Shown: positions 20,539-27,585 of the stretch, one piece after another
Layout of the letters: every line of letters starts with the position of its first letter
Numbering within the stretch: position 1 is the stretch's first letter
From: Saccharofermentans sp.
GTDB taxonomy: Bacteria; Bacillota_A; Clostridia; Saccharofermentanales; Saccharofermentanaceae
Direction of reading: 5' to 3'
Assembly (NCBI GenBank): GCA_024695565.1
Contig: JAILHX010000118.1
Location: forward strand, 1 to 46,433
Length of the DNA: 46,433 nt
Notes under the pieces: generated by a model
Database searches by the model: none
Seen by the model: only the letters and a program-made list of their open reading frames with translations
Told to the model about the DNA's origin: nothing
Made by a program: the position numbers and the translations under genes

Positions 20539-21957
20539 TTATGAGAACAGTATATCAACAGCTTCCTTAAGGTTATCTGCGTATATGAATTCAGGGGAGG
20601 GATTACCTGCGAATATATCAGGTGATGCGTTCGCAAGTTCCTTCTCAAGAGCATCCTTGGAACTGCCGGGAAGGACTACGGTCGTGATACCGAGCCTTGC
20701 TGAAGCAAGACATCTCTTAAGTATCCTGCTGACAGGTCTGATCTCGCCTGACAAACCTACTTCTCCTAAGATCAGGGTATTAGGTCTGACGCTTACGCCT
20801 CTGGCGGAAGATACCGTTGCCATGCATACTGCAAGGTCGGTGGCAGGATCGCTGACCTTAAGTCCGCCGATGACGTTAACAAAACAATCCTTGGATGTAA
20901 GACCTAACTGCAGGATCTTCTCGCAGACTGCGAGGAGCATAAGGACTCTTCCGCGCTCGGGACCTGAAGTCATTCTCTGCGGGTTGGCATAAACGCTCTC
21001 GGTGCAGAGTGCCTGAACTTCGATGGTAAGTGCATCGTTGCCTTCGAGTGTGGAAGTCAATACCGAGCCGGGGCTGTTGAGCGGTCTGCCGGCAACGAGC
21101 AGAGCCTTGGAACTGTCAACGGGAATAAGACCTGTCTCGCCCATCTCGAAGAAGCATATCTCGTTGGATCTGCCGAAGCGGTTCTTGGCAGAGCGGATGA
21201 TCCGGTATCCGCCTGTGGCGTCACCTTCAAATCCCAATACGGTATCCACCATATGCTCAATGGTCTTAGGTCCTGCGATGGAACCGTCCTTCGCAATATG
21301 GCCGACCATGATTATCGTGATGTTGTTTGTCTTGGCGATCCTGATAAGACCTGCAGCAACTTCCCTGATCTGTGCAACACCGCCGGGTGTTCCCGCAACC
21401 TGTTCGGAATAAAGAGTCTGTATTGAATCGATGATCGCAAGGCACGGCTTATGGGTCTTGAGCTGTTCTGCGATTGCTTCGAATCTCGTCTCGCCGCAGA
21501 TAAGGATGTCCCTCTTTATCTTAAGTCTTGCTGCGCGCATGCCGATCTGTGCAGGAGATTCCTCGCCTGAGATGTAGAGGATCTCGCCGTCTGCCTTATA
21601 TGAATCCGCAAGCTGCATGAGGATGGTCGATTTACCGATGCCGGGTTCACCCGCCACGAGTGTAACGGAACCTTCTGTTACACCTCCTCCGAATAATGTA
21701 TCAAGGCTCGGGATGCCTGTGGAATGCCGCTTGTAATTCTCCTTGCCTGCATCCTTAAGTCTTACCGTGACTGCAGAATCAGTCCACGAATACTGATTAG
21801 CCGTGAAAGCAGGGGAGTCTGTCTTGGCCTTGGCCGGAGCCTTCTCGGCAGGAGCTTCGACAAAAGTGTTGAACATGCCGCAGCCGGGGCACTTGCCCAT
21901 CCAGCCGGATGTCTCATATCCGCATTCCTTACAGAAAAATGTAGTCTTCTTAGCCAT
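20539..21957 (-). CDS. radA: DNA repair protein RadA
   Basis: A 472-aa ATPase that helps process recombination intermediates with RecA. The order is complete: an N-terminal C4 zinc finger (C9, C12, C23, C26), Walker A GEPGIGKST, the RadA-specific KNRFG motif in SAKNRFGRSNEI, and a C-terminal Lon-protease-like domain (GGLKVSDPATDLAVCMA, LGEVGLSGEIRPV). The frame is open to 21990, but the first ATG there overlaps a TATAAT box (21994-21989). Transcription should therefore begin downstream of it, and the start at 21957 (MAKKTTFFC) is chosen. This makes a very short leader with AGGA only two bases before the ATG. Confidence 0.96.
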   Translation of the reverse strand: MAKKTTFFCKECGYETSGWMGKCPGCGMFNTFVEAPAEKAPAKAKTDSPAFTANQYSWTDSAVTVRLKDAGKENYKRHSTGIPSLDTLFGGGVTEGSVTLVAGEPGIGKSTILMQLADSYKADGEILYISGEESPAQIGMRAARLKIKRDILICGETRFEAIAEQLKTHKPCLAIIDSIQTLYSEQVAGTPGGVAQIREVAAGLIRIAKTNNITIIMVGHIAKDGSIAGPKTIEHMVDTVLGFEGDATGGYRIIRSAKNRFGRSNEICFFEMGETGLIPVDSSKALLVAGRPLNSPGSVLTSTLEGNDALTIEVQALCTESVYANPQRMTSGPERGRVLMLLAVCEKILQLGLTSKDCFVNVIGGLKVSDPATDLAVCMATVSSARGVSVRPNTLILGEVGLSGEIRPVSRILKRCLASARLGITTVVLPGSSKDALEKELANASPDIFAGNPSPEFIYADNLKEAVDILFS

Positions 21958-21988
21958 GATCCTATCCATCCATATCTTTATTAATTGC

Positions 21989-21994
21989 ATTATA
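21989..21994 (-). promoter_or_regulatory. -10 box of radA
   Basis: A perfect TATAAT on the minus strand, 32 bases before the chosen radA ATG. No good -35 hexamer is visible 17 bases upstream (CATTAA at best). It decides the radA start by overlapping the first possible ATG. Confidence 0.55.
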
Positions 21995-22027
21995 ACAAAG
22001 GTTCTTTTCTATTAATGGGCCAATATT

Positions 22028-22083
22028 GAGGAAGGGTCTGAGGTTGAAGCGTAGAAGGAGTAGAAGGCAGAGGAAGGGTAGGA
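22028..22083 (+). repeat. Purine-rich tract with a direct repeat
   Basis: The plus strand is almost only A and G here, and GAGGAAGGGT occurs twice (22028-22037 and 22070-22079). It lies between the radA promoter and the 53-bp array. No coding or RNA function can be read from it. Confidence 0.6.
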
Positions 22084-22281
22084 TGCCCCAAATTATTCAA
22101 TTACTCATTTCCGGGGCAAATGAAACAACGTAAAACTGCCCCGGATGCAGGATTTTCGAGAACTTGGGGCAACGAATACACGTTGGTTTTGCCCCGAATC
22201 TTAATGTTCACGCTTCTTGGGGCATAAAGAGAACTCATAAATTTGCCCCGGATTTTCAAATAAATAAATAAATCTGGGGCA
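22084..22281. repeat. Four-unit inverted-repeat array with a 53-bp period
   Basis: TGCCCC occurs at 22084, 22137, 22190 and 22244. GGGGCA occurs at 22113, 22166, 22219 and 22276. Each unit is TGCCCC, 23 bases (26 in the last), GGGGCA, then 18 bases. The steps are 53, 53 and 54 bp for the left arm, and 53, 53 and 57 for the right. Flanks share a weaker consensus (tTGCCCCggat and ttGGGGCAaa), but the intervening sequences are unrelated. The period of 53 is not a multiple of three, so it is not a coding repeat. It sits between the dapL terminator and the radA promoter and resembles no named element I know. Confidence 0.9.
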
Positions 22282-22299: not shown

Positions 22300-22338
22300 A
22301 AAAAGAAGGGCCGCCTGCGTTCAAGCAGACAGCCCCTT
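22300..22338 (-). terminator. Intrinsic terminator after dapL
   Basis: On the minus strand AAGGGGCTGTCTGC pairs with GCAGGCGGCCCTT across loop TTGAA, with G-T wobbles and one bulged G, then CTTTTT. It lies about 20 bases past the dapL stop. Confidence 0.85.
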
Positions 22339-22358
22339 GGTTAATAAATCTGTTCCGC

Positions 22359-23543
22359 TTACAGTGTCTTGAAGAATCCGCAGGCCTTGAGAGTGTTCTC
22401 GTAAGATCCGAATGCCGTGAGACGGAAGTAGCCGGCGCCGTTCTCGCCGAAGCCTTCGCCGGGGGTGCCGACGATTCCGAATCTGTTAAGGAGCGAATCG
22501 AAGAAGTCCCAGCTTCCCATGTTGTCCGGGCACTCGAGCCAGATGTAAGGCGAGTTGACACCGCCCGTGAAGTAGATGCCCTTCTCTGTGAATACTTCAG
22601 CGAGGGCAGCAGCGTTGCGCTTGTAGTAAGCGATGTTAGCTTTGCAGTCTTCCATGCCCTGGCCTGAGAGTGAAGCTGCAGCGCCCTTCTGTGTAACGTA
22701 TGATACGCCGTTAAACTTAGTTGCCTGTCGTCTTGCCCAGAACTTTGAGAGCTTGATGCCGTTAACTTCAAGTCCGTCCGGAACGACAGTCCAGCCGCAT
22801 CTTACGCCTGTGAAGCCTGCGAACTTGGAGAATGAAGATACTTCGACAGCGCATGTGTCAGCGCCGGGGATCTCATAGATCGTGTGAGGCTTGTCTTCTG
22901 TGATGAATGCTTCGTATGCGGCGTCGAAAATGATCAGTGAACCGGTCTTAAGCGCGAAGTTGACCCATGCCGTGAGGCCTTCGTAGCTGTAGACTGCGCC
23001 GGTTGGATTGTTGGGTGAGCAGATGTAGATAACGGAAGGCTCGATGTTTGTATCAGCGGGCGGGAGGGGAAGGAAGTCATTCTCCTTATTGCCTGCGACG
23101 AATGATACCTTTCTGCCGTTCATGAGATTTGAGTCAACATAAACGGGATATACGGGGTCAGGGATGATCACCGGGTTGTCTCCCAGAACGTCGGGAAGGT
23201 TGCCCAGATCACTTTTGGCACCGTCAGATACATAGATGATCTCATAAGTTACAGAAGGTGCGCCGATCTCCTTGTAATGAGCCGCAATAGCGTCTCTTAA
23301 GAAATCGTATCCGTATTCCGGCGGATAACCCTTGAATGTTTCCTTGGAAGACATCTCCTTAACGGCTTCTTCCATTGCTGAAGTAATTGACCGGGGGAGA
23401 GGCAGTGTGACATCACCGATGCCCATTCTGATTATCTCTCTGCCGGGATTTTCTGTCTGGAACTTCTTTACGCGCTTTGCGATGTCGGAGAAGAGATATG
23501 TTTCTTTTACGTCAAGGAAGTGGTCGTTAAGTTTGATGTTCAT
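22359..23543 (-). CDS. dapL: LL-diaminopimelate aminotransferase
   Basis: Converts tetrahydrodipicolinate and glutamate directly to LL-DAP, bypassing acylated intermediates. At 394 aa it is slightly short of the family norm. Recognisable marks are MGIGDVTLPLP, YPPEYGYDFLRDAIA, SDGAKSDLGN, DPVYPVYVDSN, CSPNNPTGAVY, and the PLP lysine in SSFSKFAGFTGVRCGW. The ATG follows GAGGTGA at a good distance. Its product is the substrate of DapF, which here is fused to CarB at 5022-9080. Upstream is a likely promoter at 23575-23603, and downstream a clear terminator. Confidence 0.94.
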   Translation of the reverse strand: MNIKLNDHFLDVKETYLFSDIAKRVKKFQTENPGREIIRMGIGDVTLPLPRSITSAMEEAVKEMSSKETFKGYPPEYGYDFLRDAIAAHYKEIGAPSVTYEIIYVSDGAKSDLGNLPDVLGDNPVIIPDPVYPVYVDSNLMNGRKVSFVAGNKENDFLPLPPADTNIEPSVIYICSPNNPTGAVYSYEGLTAWVNFALKTGSLIIFDAAYEAFITEDKPHTIYEIPGADTCAVEVSSFSKFAGFTGVRCGWTVVPDGLEVNGIKLSKFWARRQATKFNGVSYVTQKGAAASLSGQGMEDCKANIAYYKRNAAALAEVFTEKGIYFTGGVNSPYIWLECPDNMGSWDFFDSLLNRFGIVGTPGEGFGENGAGYFRLTAFGSYENTLKACGFFKTL

Positions 23544-25578: not shown

Positions 25579-27585
25579 ATGAAAAAACTACCCAAAAGAA
25601 TAGTTGCGCTCCTATGCGCAGCTGCTCTTCTGCTTCCCATGGCTGCCTGCACTGAGTCAGGCGGCGGCAGATCGGGCGGCGGAAGACATTCCGGCGGAGA
25701 CAGCAAACCGCGCGGCGGTGATGAGACTTATGCAACGGATATCACGGATCCCACGGATCCCACGGATCCTACTGATCCTACCGATCCTACGGATCCTACA
25801 GGAACAACCCCGGTATATACCGGCGATTTCATTCCTACATCAGATGAACTGACATATCCTGATCATGTGGCTACTCTCGATGAGATCCATCCTTATCACG
25901 AACCCGGTACTCTGCAGGGTACTGATGCACTTGATATGCTCACACAGGTTGAAAATGATGTTCTCTGGCATGAGGTCACTAGTTATGCCGACATAGAGAT
26001 CCTCTTTGATGAACCTGAAAAATTCGGTTTCTACTATACCGACATCACATGGGGAGATTTTATTACCATCGACCAGTATGGCGAGGAACAGATCTACTAT
26101 GAGAAGATGCTCGAGAACCTTTTGATGATCGATTACACTACACTGAGCGGTGACGACAAACTCTGCTATGACAAGATGGTTTATGATCTTGAAGAGACGA
26201 TTTATGCATATTCATACACGTCGTTCAATTATTATACGATGATCTTCAACTATCTCGTAGGACCGCAGTCTGATATCCTTTTCGTTCTTGAGGTGTTCTC
26301 TTTCGAGACGGTTGAGGATGCCCAGAATTACATCCTGCTCGTTAAGGATATTGACAGATACTATGACCTGATGTGTGAATACGAAGAGGAGAGAGTTGCC
26401 TACGGCTTCGCATCTTCTGACAACAGCTATGAGGAAGCTGCGGTCTCATTCGATAATCTTGTCGCACAGAAGGATGACTGCTTCCTATATGCTTCATTCG
26501 AAGAGAGGCTCGACAACATCAAAGATCTCTCGTCTGCTGACAGGGACAGGCTCATAGCAGAGCACGAGAGCGCGATGAAGGACGTCATGTTCCCTGAGTT
26601 TCAGGAGTGCGCTGACCGCATGAGAGCTCTTAAGGGCTCAGGCGGAGTAGATGCGGGTCTTTGCGAGTACAGAGGCGGAGACGCTTACTATGCAATGCTT
26701 ACGAGAGGCATGACAAACAGCGGTAAGACAGTTGATGAGAGCATTGCTGCTCTTGATGCAAGGATCGATATGATCTATGACGAGTTCAATGACATCATCA
26801 ACTCAGGATTCGGCTGGTATGACGAGTATTTAAATCATGCATATTCAAAGGGCGACATCAATGACAATCTCGATTATCTCTATGGTGAGATCGGTGCCGA
26901 TTTCCCGGATATTCCTTCACACAGTTACTTCATGATGGACGTTCCCGAAGTGTTCGAAGAGAACTTCTCACCGGCAGCTTACCTCGGTTATCACCTCGAC
27001 AACTTTGACTCGAACATGCTTATCGTAAATAACTCACAGGTTGACGATGACTTTGGTGTAACAGTTGCACACGAGGCATATCCCGGACACATGTTCCAGT
27101 CGATCTACACACGTGCCCATACAACTCATCCGTACCTGTATCTGACGGAGTCCACAGGCTATCTGGAAGGATGGGCTACATATGTCGAGAATTACTCGAT
27201 GAAGTACTTTACGGATAACGGCGAGATCTCCGATGCGATGACCCTCATCAGAGACGAGTCGCTGTTAGGTCTTCTTTGCAGTACGAGAGTTGACTATGGA
27301 ATCCATGTTGAGAACTGGTCTTTGCAGGACTGCATCGACTATTTCAACGGCTTCGGATTCGGTGTTACCGAGGATTCTTTCTCGAAGTTCTACACGCTTA
27401 TCGTTACCGATCCCGGCTATTATGCAAAGTACGGAATGGGTTATCTGTGGACACAGCAGACCATGGAAGATATGCACGCTCTGCACCCTGATGCAACGGA
27501 TAAGGAGATCCATACGGCATACCTTGATTCGATGACAGGAACGTTTGAACAGATCAATGCATACATGGATGAACTCTTAAGCTGA
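25579..27585 (+). CDS. DUF885-family zinc-peptidase-like lipoprotein
   Basis: A 668-aa exported lipoprotein. The signal peptide ends in LPMAAC with lipidated C24. A Gly/Arg/Ser-rich stretch and six DPT repeats then form a flexible tether (residues about 25-80). The globular part is a DUF885 (PF05960) protein. The probable metal site is H498-E499 and H504 in HEAYPGHMF, with ESTGYLEGWATYVEN downstream as the usual second-ligand region. These proteins are thought to be metallopeptidases, but substrates are unknown. The SD AAAGGAG lies about 11 bases before the ATG. A strong terminator follows at 27609-27648, so it is probably monocistronic or the end of a unit with the previous gene. Confidence 0.9.
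   Translation: MKKLPKRIVALLCAAALLLPMAACTESGGGRSGGGRHSGGDSKPRGGDETYATDITDPTDPTDPTDPTDPTDPTGTTPVYTGDFIPTSDELTYPDHVATLDEIHPYHEPGTLQGTDALDMLTQVENDVLWHEVTSYADIEILFDEPEKFGFYYTDITWGDFITIDQYGEEQIYYEKMLENLLMIDYTTLSGDDKLCYDKMVYDLEETIYAYSYTSFNYYTMIFNYLVGPQSDILFVLEVFSFETVEDAQNYILLVKDIDRYYDLMCEYEEERVAYGFASSDNSYEEAAVSFDNLVAQKDDCFLYASFEERLDNIKDLSSADRDRLIAEHESAMKDVMFPEFQECADRMRALKGSGGVDAGLCEYRGGDAYYAMLTRGMTNSGKTVDESIAALDARIDMIYDEFNDIINSGFGWYDEYLNHAYSKGDINDNLDYLYGEIGADFPDIPSHSYFMMDVPEVFEENFSPAAYLGYHLDNFDSNMLIVNNSQVDDDFGVTVAHEAYPGHMFQSIYTRAHTTHPYLYLTESTGYLEGWATYVENYSMKYFTDNGEISDAMTLIRDESLLGLLCSTRVDYGIHVENWSLQDCIDYFNGFGFGVTEDSFSKFYTLIVTDPGYYAKYGMGYLWTQQTMEDMHALHPDATDKEIHTAYLDSMTGTFEQINAYMDELLS
25747..25800 (+). 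repeat. 9-bp tandem repeat coding for Asp-Pro-Thr
   Basis: Six copies of a GATCC(C/T)AC(G/T/C/A)-like unit in frame within the DUF885 lipoprotein. Copy-number change would keep the frame and only alter tether length. Confidence 0.85.

Follow-up and report, generated by a model that had tools for sequence, protein, structure and literature searches.

The described systems that come closest in behaviour to the element reported here are the REPIN/RAYT partnerships. According to the accessible part of the source (PMC3116915), dispersed extragenic palindromes, the REPINs (REP doublets forming hairpins, REP being a repetitive extragenic palindrome), are each of a type that matches a cluster beside one enzyme gene, the RAYT (REP-associated tyrosine transposase), whose product is the presumed mover. 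The present work deals with a 46,433-nt stretch of DNA from Saccharofermentans sp. (contig JAILHX010000118.1), called the window throughout, and with an array of four TGCCCC/GGGGCA palindromic units that it carries between the dapL and radA genes. We lean towards regarding this array as a dispersed copy of the phased binding arrays of a private nuclease, spread in the manner of REPINs.

The likeness to REPIN/RAYT is one of behaviour, and the enzyme class is different. Here too the palindromic repeats are extragenic and dispersed (10 sites in genome G001 and 9 in G019), and the same repeat type adjoins a cognate gene (upstream in 46 of 74 loci). However, the enzyme looks like a PD-(D/E)XK protein rather than a Y1/HUH transposase and its family reaches at most 15 matches per genome, while the units share mainly their arms and are repeated at steps near whole helical turns. 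A type occupies about ten sites here, whereas REPs usually number more than 100 in the available portion of PMC2817692; likewise, REP palindromes are described in the accessible text of PMC3733652 as bearing a GTAG or CGTC tag at the foot, and neither is found at the ends of the window arms.

Other systems are comparable in some of their traits. TIGR-Tas (tandem interspaced guide RNA and associated proteins) combines, in the part of the source at hand (PMC12045711), two distinct alternating 8-12-nt repeats, spacers of about 9 nt, 36-nt RNAs and a Nop-domain protein. As far as that part goes, both systems have alternating short repeats, variable spacers, an adjacent effector gene and repeats that differ by locus, but the arrays described here repeat a single arm in inverted copies, with steps of 50-85 bp that lie close to helical turns, and Pfam gave no Nop match with three members of the enzyme family. 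The repeats of CRISPR (clustered regularly interspaced short palindromic repeats) are direct and separated by unique spacers; ours alternate in orientation. Iterons and the centromere arrays parC and tubC are phased repeats for cooperative protein binding, from which the present arrays differ in consisting of alternating palindromes, in being dispersed over the chromosome and in having arms that vary between paralogous genes. The Rpn/Transposase_31 nucleases belong to the PD-(D/E)XK fold. They have been linked to DNA mobility and phage defence in the accessible parts of two sources (PMC5350276, PMC10327210); the enzyme studied here differs in having no Pfam match to that family and in that its variable part is N-terminal and tied to DNA arrays.

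Our search of the literature, from which most subscription papers lay outside, found no description of such arrays or of this nuclease family. We count them as a variety of the repeat-plus-private-enzyme partnership, with a real chance that they merit separate rank. Repeats of rumen and gut Clostridia that had no explanation are here linked to a specific unnamed enzyme family, which would constitute a second, independent partnership of the REPIN/RAYT kind and bears on the question of why genomes retain such repeats.

The window array and its class in related Clostridia

The original prediction, made from the letters of the DNA, described four TGCCCC/GGGGCA pairs, and the recomputed coordinates bear it out: left and right arms alternate perfectly, the former at steps of 53, 53 and 54 bp and the latter at 53, 53 and 57 bp, with loops of 23-26 and linkers of 18-19 (Table 1). 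The pattern TGCCCC-N18-30-GGGGCA matched four times in the window and never in 100 dinucleotide-preserving shuffles. When exact 6-bp arms of any sequence were sought at near-equal loops, the TGCCCC array was the sole one in the window; three of its four units were caught (the loop of the fourth is 3 longer), and at least three pairs occurred in none of 100 shuffled windows. The array is real and not a product of chance. The sequence between the arms, at first described as unrelated, is nearly so, loops and linkers being AT-rich and alike just weakly. Neither an Rfam family at gathering thresholds nor a tRNA was found in the window. The array folds on either strand (z -4.6 and -4.0), to which we give little weight because any palindrome array would yield such values.

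The window array is one copy of a wider array class in related rumen Clostridia, with arms that differ. The units of an array have their arms in common, and so, in the types searched, do the dispersed arrays of one genome. The pair TTACTTGCTG/CAGCAAGTAA thus occurs 24 times in G001 and in none of five other genomes searched; with at most two mismatches per arm, G001 holds 10 such arrays with 36 units, all 26 steps being 73 bp, in which the arms are nearly invariant and the loops and linkers variable, often with a central A/T tract. A 400-kb sample of G001 contained seven arrays with several arm words, and the shuffled sample none. The TTACACCA elements are about 88 bp long, with two units at a 50-bp step, and occupy 9 sites in G019 and 7 in G081. 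The TTCCACGGAA type was met in one of the 115 genomes of the family to which genome G003 belongs, with two copies by its nuclease gene and a third at another place. The same arms recurred elsewhere in the genome for all four arm types searched, TTCCACGGAA just once. As for the window type, the search of relatives proposed in the original prediction did find TGCCCC arrays, in 4 of these 115 genomes and at 11 places (three arms searched), but those inspected have steps of 51-52 instead of 53. A three-arm TGCCCC-pattern match was also present in 28 viral contigs, a number that may be due to chance.

Two further features of G001 were seen. A single additional hairpin with arms TTACGTACCT/AGGTACGTAA stands to the right of six of the ten TTACTTGCTG arrays (L133, L134, L135 in slightly varied form, L138, L139 and L140), and at 13978-14440 of L128 three arrays with three arm words lie side by side, like an insertion hot spot.

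The step lengths follow the DNA helix. An exact 7-bp-arm scan of 1.85 Mb of relatives' DNA returned 123 arrays, overlapping and orthologous loci included, versus none in shuffled DNA. Their steps fall at 50-53 (72 arrays), 61-64 (7), 72-76 (24), 83-85 (4) and 103-106 bp (11), with one array each at 55, 93, 125 and 132 and another past the printed range; the clusters at 50-53, 61-64, 72-76 and 83-85 bp correspond to about 5, 6, 7 and 8 helical turns. With the arms sorted into 47 families, the best-fitting period is 10.45 bp (R 0.78). Fifteen families with steps other than 50-53 have a mean offset of 0.06 bp from whole 10.5-bp turns (Rayleigh R 0.72, p ~4e-4); they are a set of hand-typed steps, one per arm family, that omits the 50-53 class, same-family repeats, the steps 103-106 and 125 (twice 52 and 62.5) and 132 (L124, a poor whole-turn fit), retains 55 (L115) and counts a step of 62 from L179. 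The repeat pair behind the last value, at 3023-3134 of L179 and 3' of a nuclease gene, is longer (GGGACTTTCCCGGGAC...) and unlike the arm arrays. Since steps cluster at whole turns, the phasing suggests a DNA duplex with proteins along a single face more than it does RNA, and the idea that all arms of the window array face one side of the helix, voiced at first for the window, is supported by the arrays of many relatives.

A predicted nuclease family linked to the arrays

In three genomes an array adjoins a gene of one and the same family, which looks, from its sequence, like a multi-copy family of PD-(D/E)XK nucleases. Pfam gave no significant match for three members, and in particular none to Y1 or Rpn/Transposase_31. 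The C-terminal half matches PD-(D/E)XK domains of PADLOC candidate phage-defence proteins, with a profile match to the C-terminus of PDC-S68 (E 4e-26), and in 50 sequences R155, S156, K157, E159, P188, D189, H205 and G207 of an acidic motif are invariant, E204 nearly so. In the confidently predicted structure (predicted local distance difference test score, pLDDT, 92) a helix and a three-stranded sheet are followed by a long helix and the C-terminal domain, and fold comparison of this domain lists the Bax1, Vsr and VRR_NUC nucleases among its rows, with modest scores. A TIGR-Tas TasH chain at rank 5, matching the N-terminal hairpin, raised an RNA-guided reading, which was dropped given that equal rows are generic coiled coils and that the steps are those of the DNA helix. 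Family matches occur in 111 of the 115 genomes of the family of G003, some of them distant; at the level of the class, 43 of 291 genomes have matches, many of them partial. Phage records yielded two matches, one of them at 80% query coverage or more (28% identity), and plasmids six, none at 80% coverage. The window itself revealed no gene of this nuclease family; a TGCCCC-type nuclease would presumably be encoded elsewhere in the same genome.

Arrays stand upstream of these genes. Exact four-arm arrays (K>=6) were found within 420 bp upstream at 46 of 74 nuclease loci, downstream at none (one locus has just 28 bp there) and in 1 of 1480 shuffles; the 74 loci include one gene twice (L207 = L175), the close orthologues L156/L157 and L191/L210 and the broken L224 (99-aa frame). 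Excluding the seven loci reached via an array or its gene (L136, L156, L157, L172, L191, L207 and L210), the figure is 39 of 67, these others having been picked from among a larger number of family matches listed and not by looking for arrays. With a mismatch-tolerant score of at least 23, arrays are upstream at 50 of 74 loci, downstream at 2 of 73 and in none of 740 shuffles, and in 41 of the 50 the array ends 110-176 bp ahead of the start codon. A two-unit array had been seen by scan upstream of 20 of the first 30 loci. Outside the family of G003 (L264-L275), a K>=6 array lies no more than 700 bp upstream at 8 of 12 loci, and downstream too at 2 of 12 (shuffles 0/240), at steps of 52-54, 62-63 and 73-76, and of 83 in one more; at L264 many units flank the nuclease gene on both sides.

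The arms vary from gene to gene, save between close relatives. One of the ten TTACTTGCTG sites of G001 adjoins a nuclease gene, one TTACACCA copy each in G019, G081 and G005 stands before one, and so do TGCCCC arrays in G024, G025 and G082; the single TGCCCC array of G075 is not tied to a nuclease gene. Where the cognate gene is present, hairpin counts are 17, 12 and 5 per genome. G004, G075 and G015 hold three exact TTACACCA hairpins each and no close nuclease N-terminus (best 43% identity), and G026, G049, G054 and G110 one hairpin each, taken as chance.

A different, shared palindrome, GAGACTAGTCTC (at most three mismatches), begins 69-133 bp before the start codon at 43 of 74 nuclease loci (L156-L185, L219-L258 and four others) versus 1 of 74 shuffled stretches, and suggests one common regulator of the nuclease paralogues. 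Exact TGAGACYRGTCTCA was noted 3-7 times per genome in eight genomes, at some places beside nuclease genes.

Which part of the protein goes with the arms? Arm similarity correlates with identity in every nuclease region over 46 genes. In a partial Mantel test on these genes the association stays with the sheet (residues 31-58; r=0.13, p=0.0005) and the first helix (r=0.11, p=0.0055) and not with the nuclease domain (p=0.79); arm similarity had earlier been scored in a wrong register at a few loci, L172 included, and this test compares both registers and omits L191 and L157. Between L170 and L172 the identity is 98% for the nuclease domain but 46% for the sheet, and the arms differ; L226 and L229 follow the same pattern (97% and 46%), and L175/L210 and L169/L170, with 93% identity in the sheet and 78-81% in the nuclease domain (78% for L175/L210), share their arms. 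Such pairs give the impression that N-terminal part and arms have been exchanged together in nature. The N-terminal region is likely the arm reader, and a DNA-recognition code might be derived from the many reader domains and arm words that occur paired in these genomes.

Apparent spread of the arrays and competing explanations

The dispersed arrays favour gene 3' ends. Among 29 of them, 14 lie in convergent, 13 in co-directional and 2 in divergent gaps, versus 13, 109 and 51 of 173 baseline gaps, taken from simple open reading frame (ORF) calls at other loci of the group (Fisher test, convergent excess p=4e-7, divergent deficit p=0.01); this set omits arrays that adjoin nuclease genes, as well as a number of orthologous copies, and retains the orthologous pair L199/L213 as well as the window and L002, which share a place and differ in arms. 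None of the 29 has its midpoint inside an ORF of at least 150 aa. Outside the arms, the likeness between units of different G001 arrays is 46% at equal rank and 38% at unequal rank (p=8e-15, from pairs that are not independent), as would be expected of copies made en bloc. A site occupied in G081 (L209) is array-free in G075 (L290), with 184 versus 26 bp between matching flanks, at which no clean target-site duplication could be defined. L202 has three units and its orthologues L214 and L218 two. On balance, these findings suit a REPIN-like element that moves more than they do an operator.

It is tempting to propose how such a system would work. Each arm type would be the DNA site of one member of the nuclease family, whose N-terminal helix, three-stranded beta sheet and following helix probably read the arms, perhaps with the protein bound as dimers on one face of the DNA, and whose C-terminal domain would nick or cut DNA. 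The nuclease gene carries its own array some 120-260 bp upstream, and copies of the array would spread in blocks to intergenic places, mostly gene 3' ends, single units being gained or lost. The nuclease would be the likeliest agent of this spread, as RAYT transposases are for REPINs, and we infer direct binding, dimers, catalysis and the mobilisation of arrays by the enzyme. A broader picture, which we put forward tentatively as plausible rather than probable, is that of a mobile DNA system in which the phased arrays would be spread and kept up by their own nuclease, its N-terminal reader being exchangeable, with many private pairs per genome trading readers. Two observations weigh against the proposed binding arrays: in some pairs half of the sheet positions differ although the arms are similar, which makes the link imperfect, and in 8 of the 10 G001 arrays the central A/T tract keeps a constant strand, so that these arrays are directional, as a plain DNA site would not need to be. 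The notion of a strand-neutral tract was dropped on the latter count.

The same arrays may serve regulation instead of mobility. The nuclease would then repress its own gene through the upstream array, the dispersed arrays would act as decoys or stores that keep a dangerous nuclease bound to the chromosome until phage DNA competes for it, and ordinary recombination would spread them. In its favour are the position of the array upstream of the gene and near the GAGACTAGTCTC palindrome, the resemblance of the nuclease domain to the C-terminal domains of candidate phage-defence proteins, and the phased sites, which suit cooperative binding; yet copies that look made en bloc, their 3'-end placement and their patchy presence in relatives ask for a spreading agent, and we consider this explanation unlikely, if worth keeping in mind. 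Ordinary terminators or chance, for which one could invoke arms of just 6 bp and the terminator that adjoins the array, are refuted by the shuffles and by the recurrence of the architecture in relatives, and their probability is negligible.

Antitoxin RNAs of the ToxI type offer a different model, in which the arrays would act as RNA, their transcribed hairpins guiding or inhibiting the nuclease as ToxI-type RNAs or TIGR arrays do. The ability of the window array to fold on either strand agrees with it, as does the one-stranded A/T tract, needless for a plain DNA site, and TIGR-Tas arrays adjoin their effector gene and have stem-loop variants in the accessible part of PMC12045711. Nevertheless, steps of 50-85 bp cluster at turns of the DNA helix and compare poorly with the 36-nt TIGR unit, and the array before the nuclease gene lies, by eye, upstream of the likely promoter; RNA of alternately pairing stems, one of the options first raised for the window, is disfavoured on account of the steps and seems to us quite improbable. 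Chromosome-organising or transcription-punctuation sites of a host nucleoid protein without relation to the nuclease would account for the phasing and the intergenic 3' position, but an architectural protein is expected to keep one site, and the arms differ by species and by gene copy and match the array of the nuclease gene, which leaves this possibility very hard to credit. Dispersed binding arrays, moved, as we infer, by the nuclease that would read them, stay the reading that we favour.

Neighbourhood of the window array

The array was originally placed between the dapL terminator and the radA promoter, and this position holds with terminator and promoter both read by eye: it stands just beyond the former and ahead of the region of the latter (Table 1).

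Table 1. Coordinates of the array units and neighbouring features in the window
Feature	Position	Strand	Description
Palindromic unit 1	22084..22118	none	TGCCCC-N23-GGGGCA; GGGGCA starts at 22113
Palindromic unit 2	22137..22171	none	TGCCCC-N23-GGGGCA; +53 bp from unit 1; GGGGCA starts at 22166
Palindromic unit 3	22190..22224	none	TGCCCC-N23-GGGGCA; +53 bp from unit 2; GGGGCA starts at 22219
Palindromic unit 4	22244..22281	none	TGCCCC-N26-GGGGCA; +54 bp from unit 3; GGGGCA starts at 22276
dapL	22359-23543	minus	
radA ORF	20539-21990	minus	likely MAKK start near 21957
dapL intrinsic terminator	22300..22340	minus	stem and T run, by eye; terminator-like stems at the same place in relatives
Putative radA promoter region, outside the array	21989..22024	minus	TTGTTATAAT, common to relatives; by eye

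A DapL scan of relatives kept 80 loci, of which the first 30 were inspected and 18 have radA and dapL adjacent. In 15 of these 18 the intergenic gap measures 24-163 bp and holds no array by scan, and the other three (L002, L005 and L006) carry an array at this site with arms other than TGCCCC; that of L002 reads TTACTTGCTG-N19-CAGCAAGTAA three times at 73-bp spacing. The place is common to relatives, and arms and step are not conserved. A conserved radA/dapL operator is accordingly rejected, and conservation of the arms in relatives, the test that had been set for the array at the outset, went against it. The early idea of a multi-site operator survives in its general form, a multi-site binding region, and fails as an operator of the neighbouring genes, given the array-free relatives and the avoidance of divergent gaps. 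It was this variation of arms between relatives that turned out to be the key to the identity of the array.

At 7403-7503 of L005 and just beyond, two interleaved complementary arm pairs (TTGACTGTTT and GGTACCTGTTT with their complements) are found in place of a simple alternation. In the window, a purine-rich stretch of the plus strand (22028-22083) abuts the array on the radA side, and at 25735-25799 an in-frame 9-bp tandem repeat encodes a run of Thr-Asp-Pro within an ORF (25579-27585) for a putative lipoprotein.
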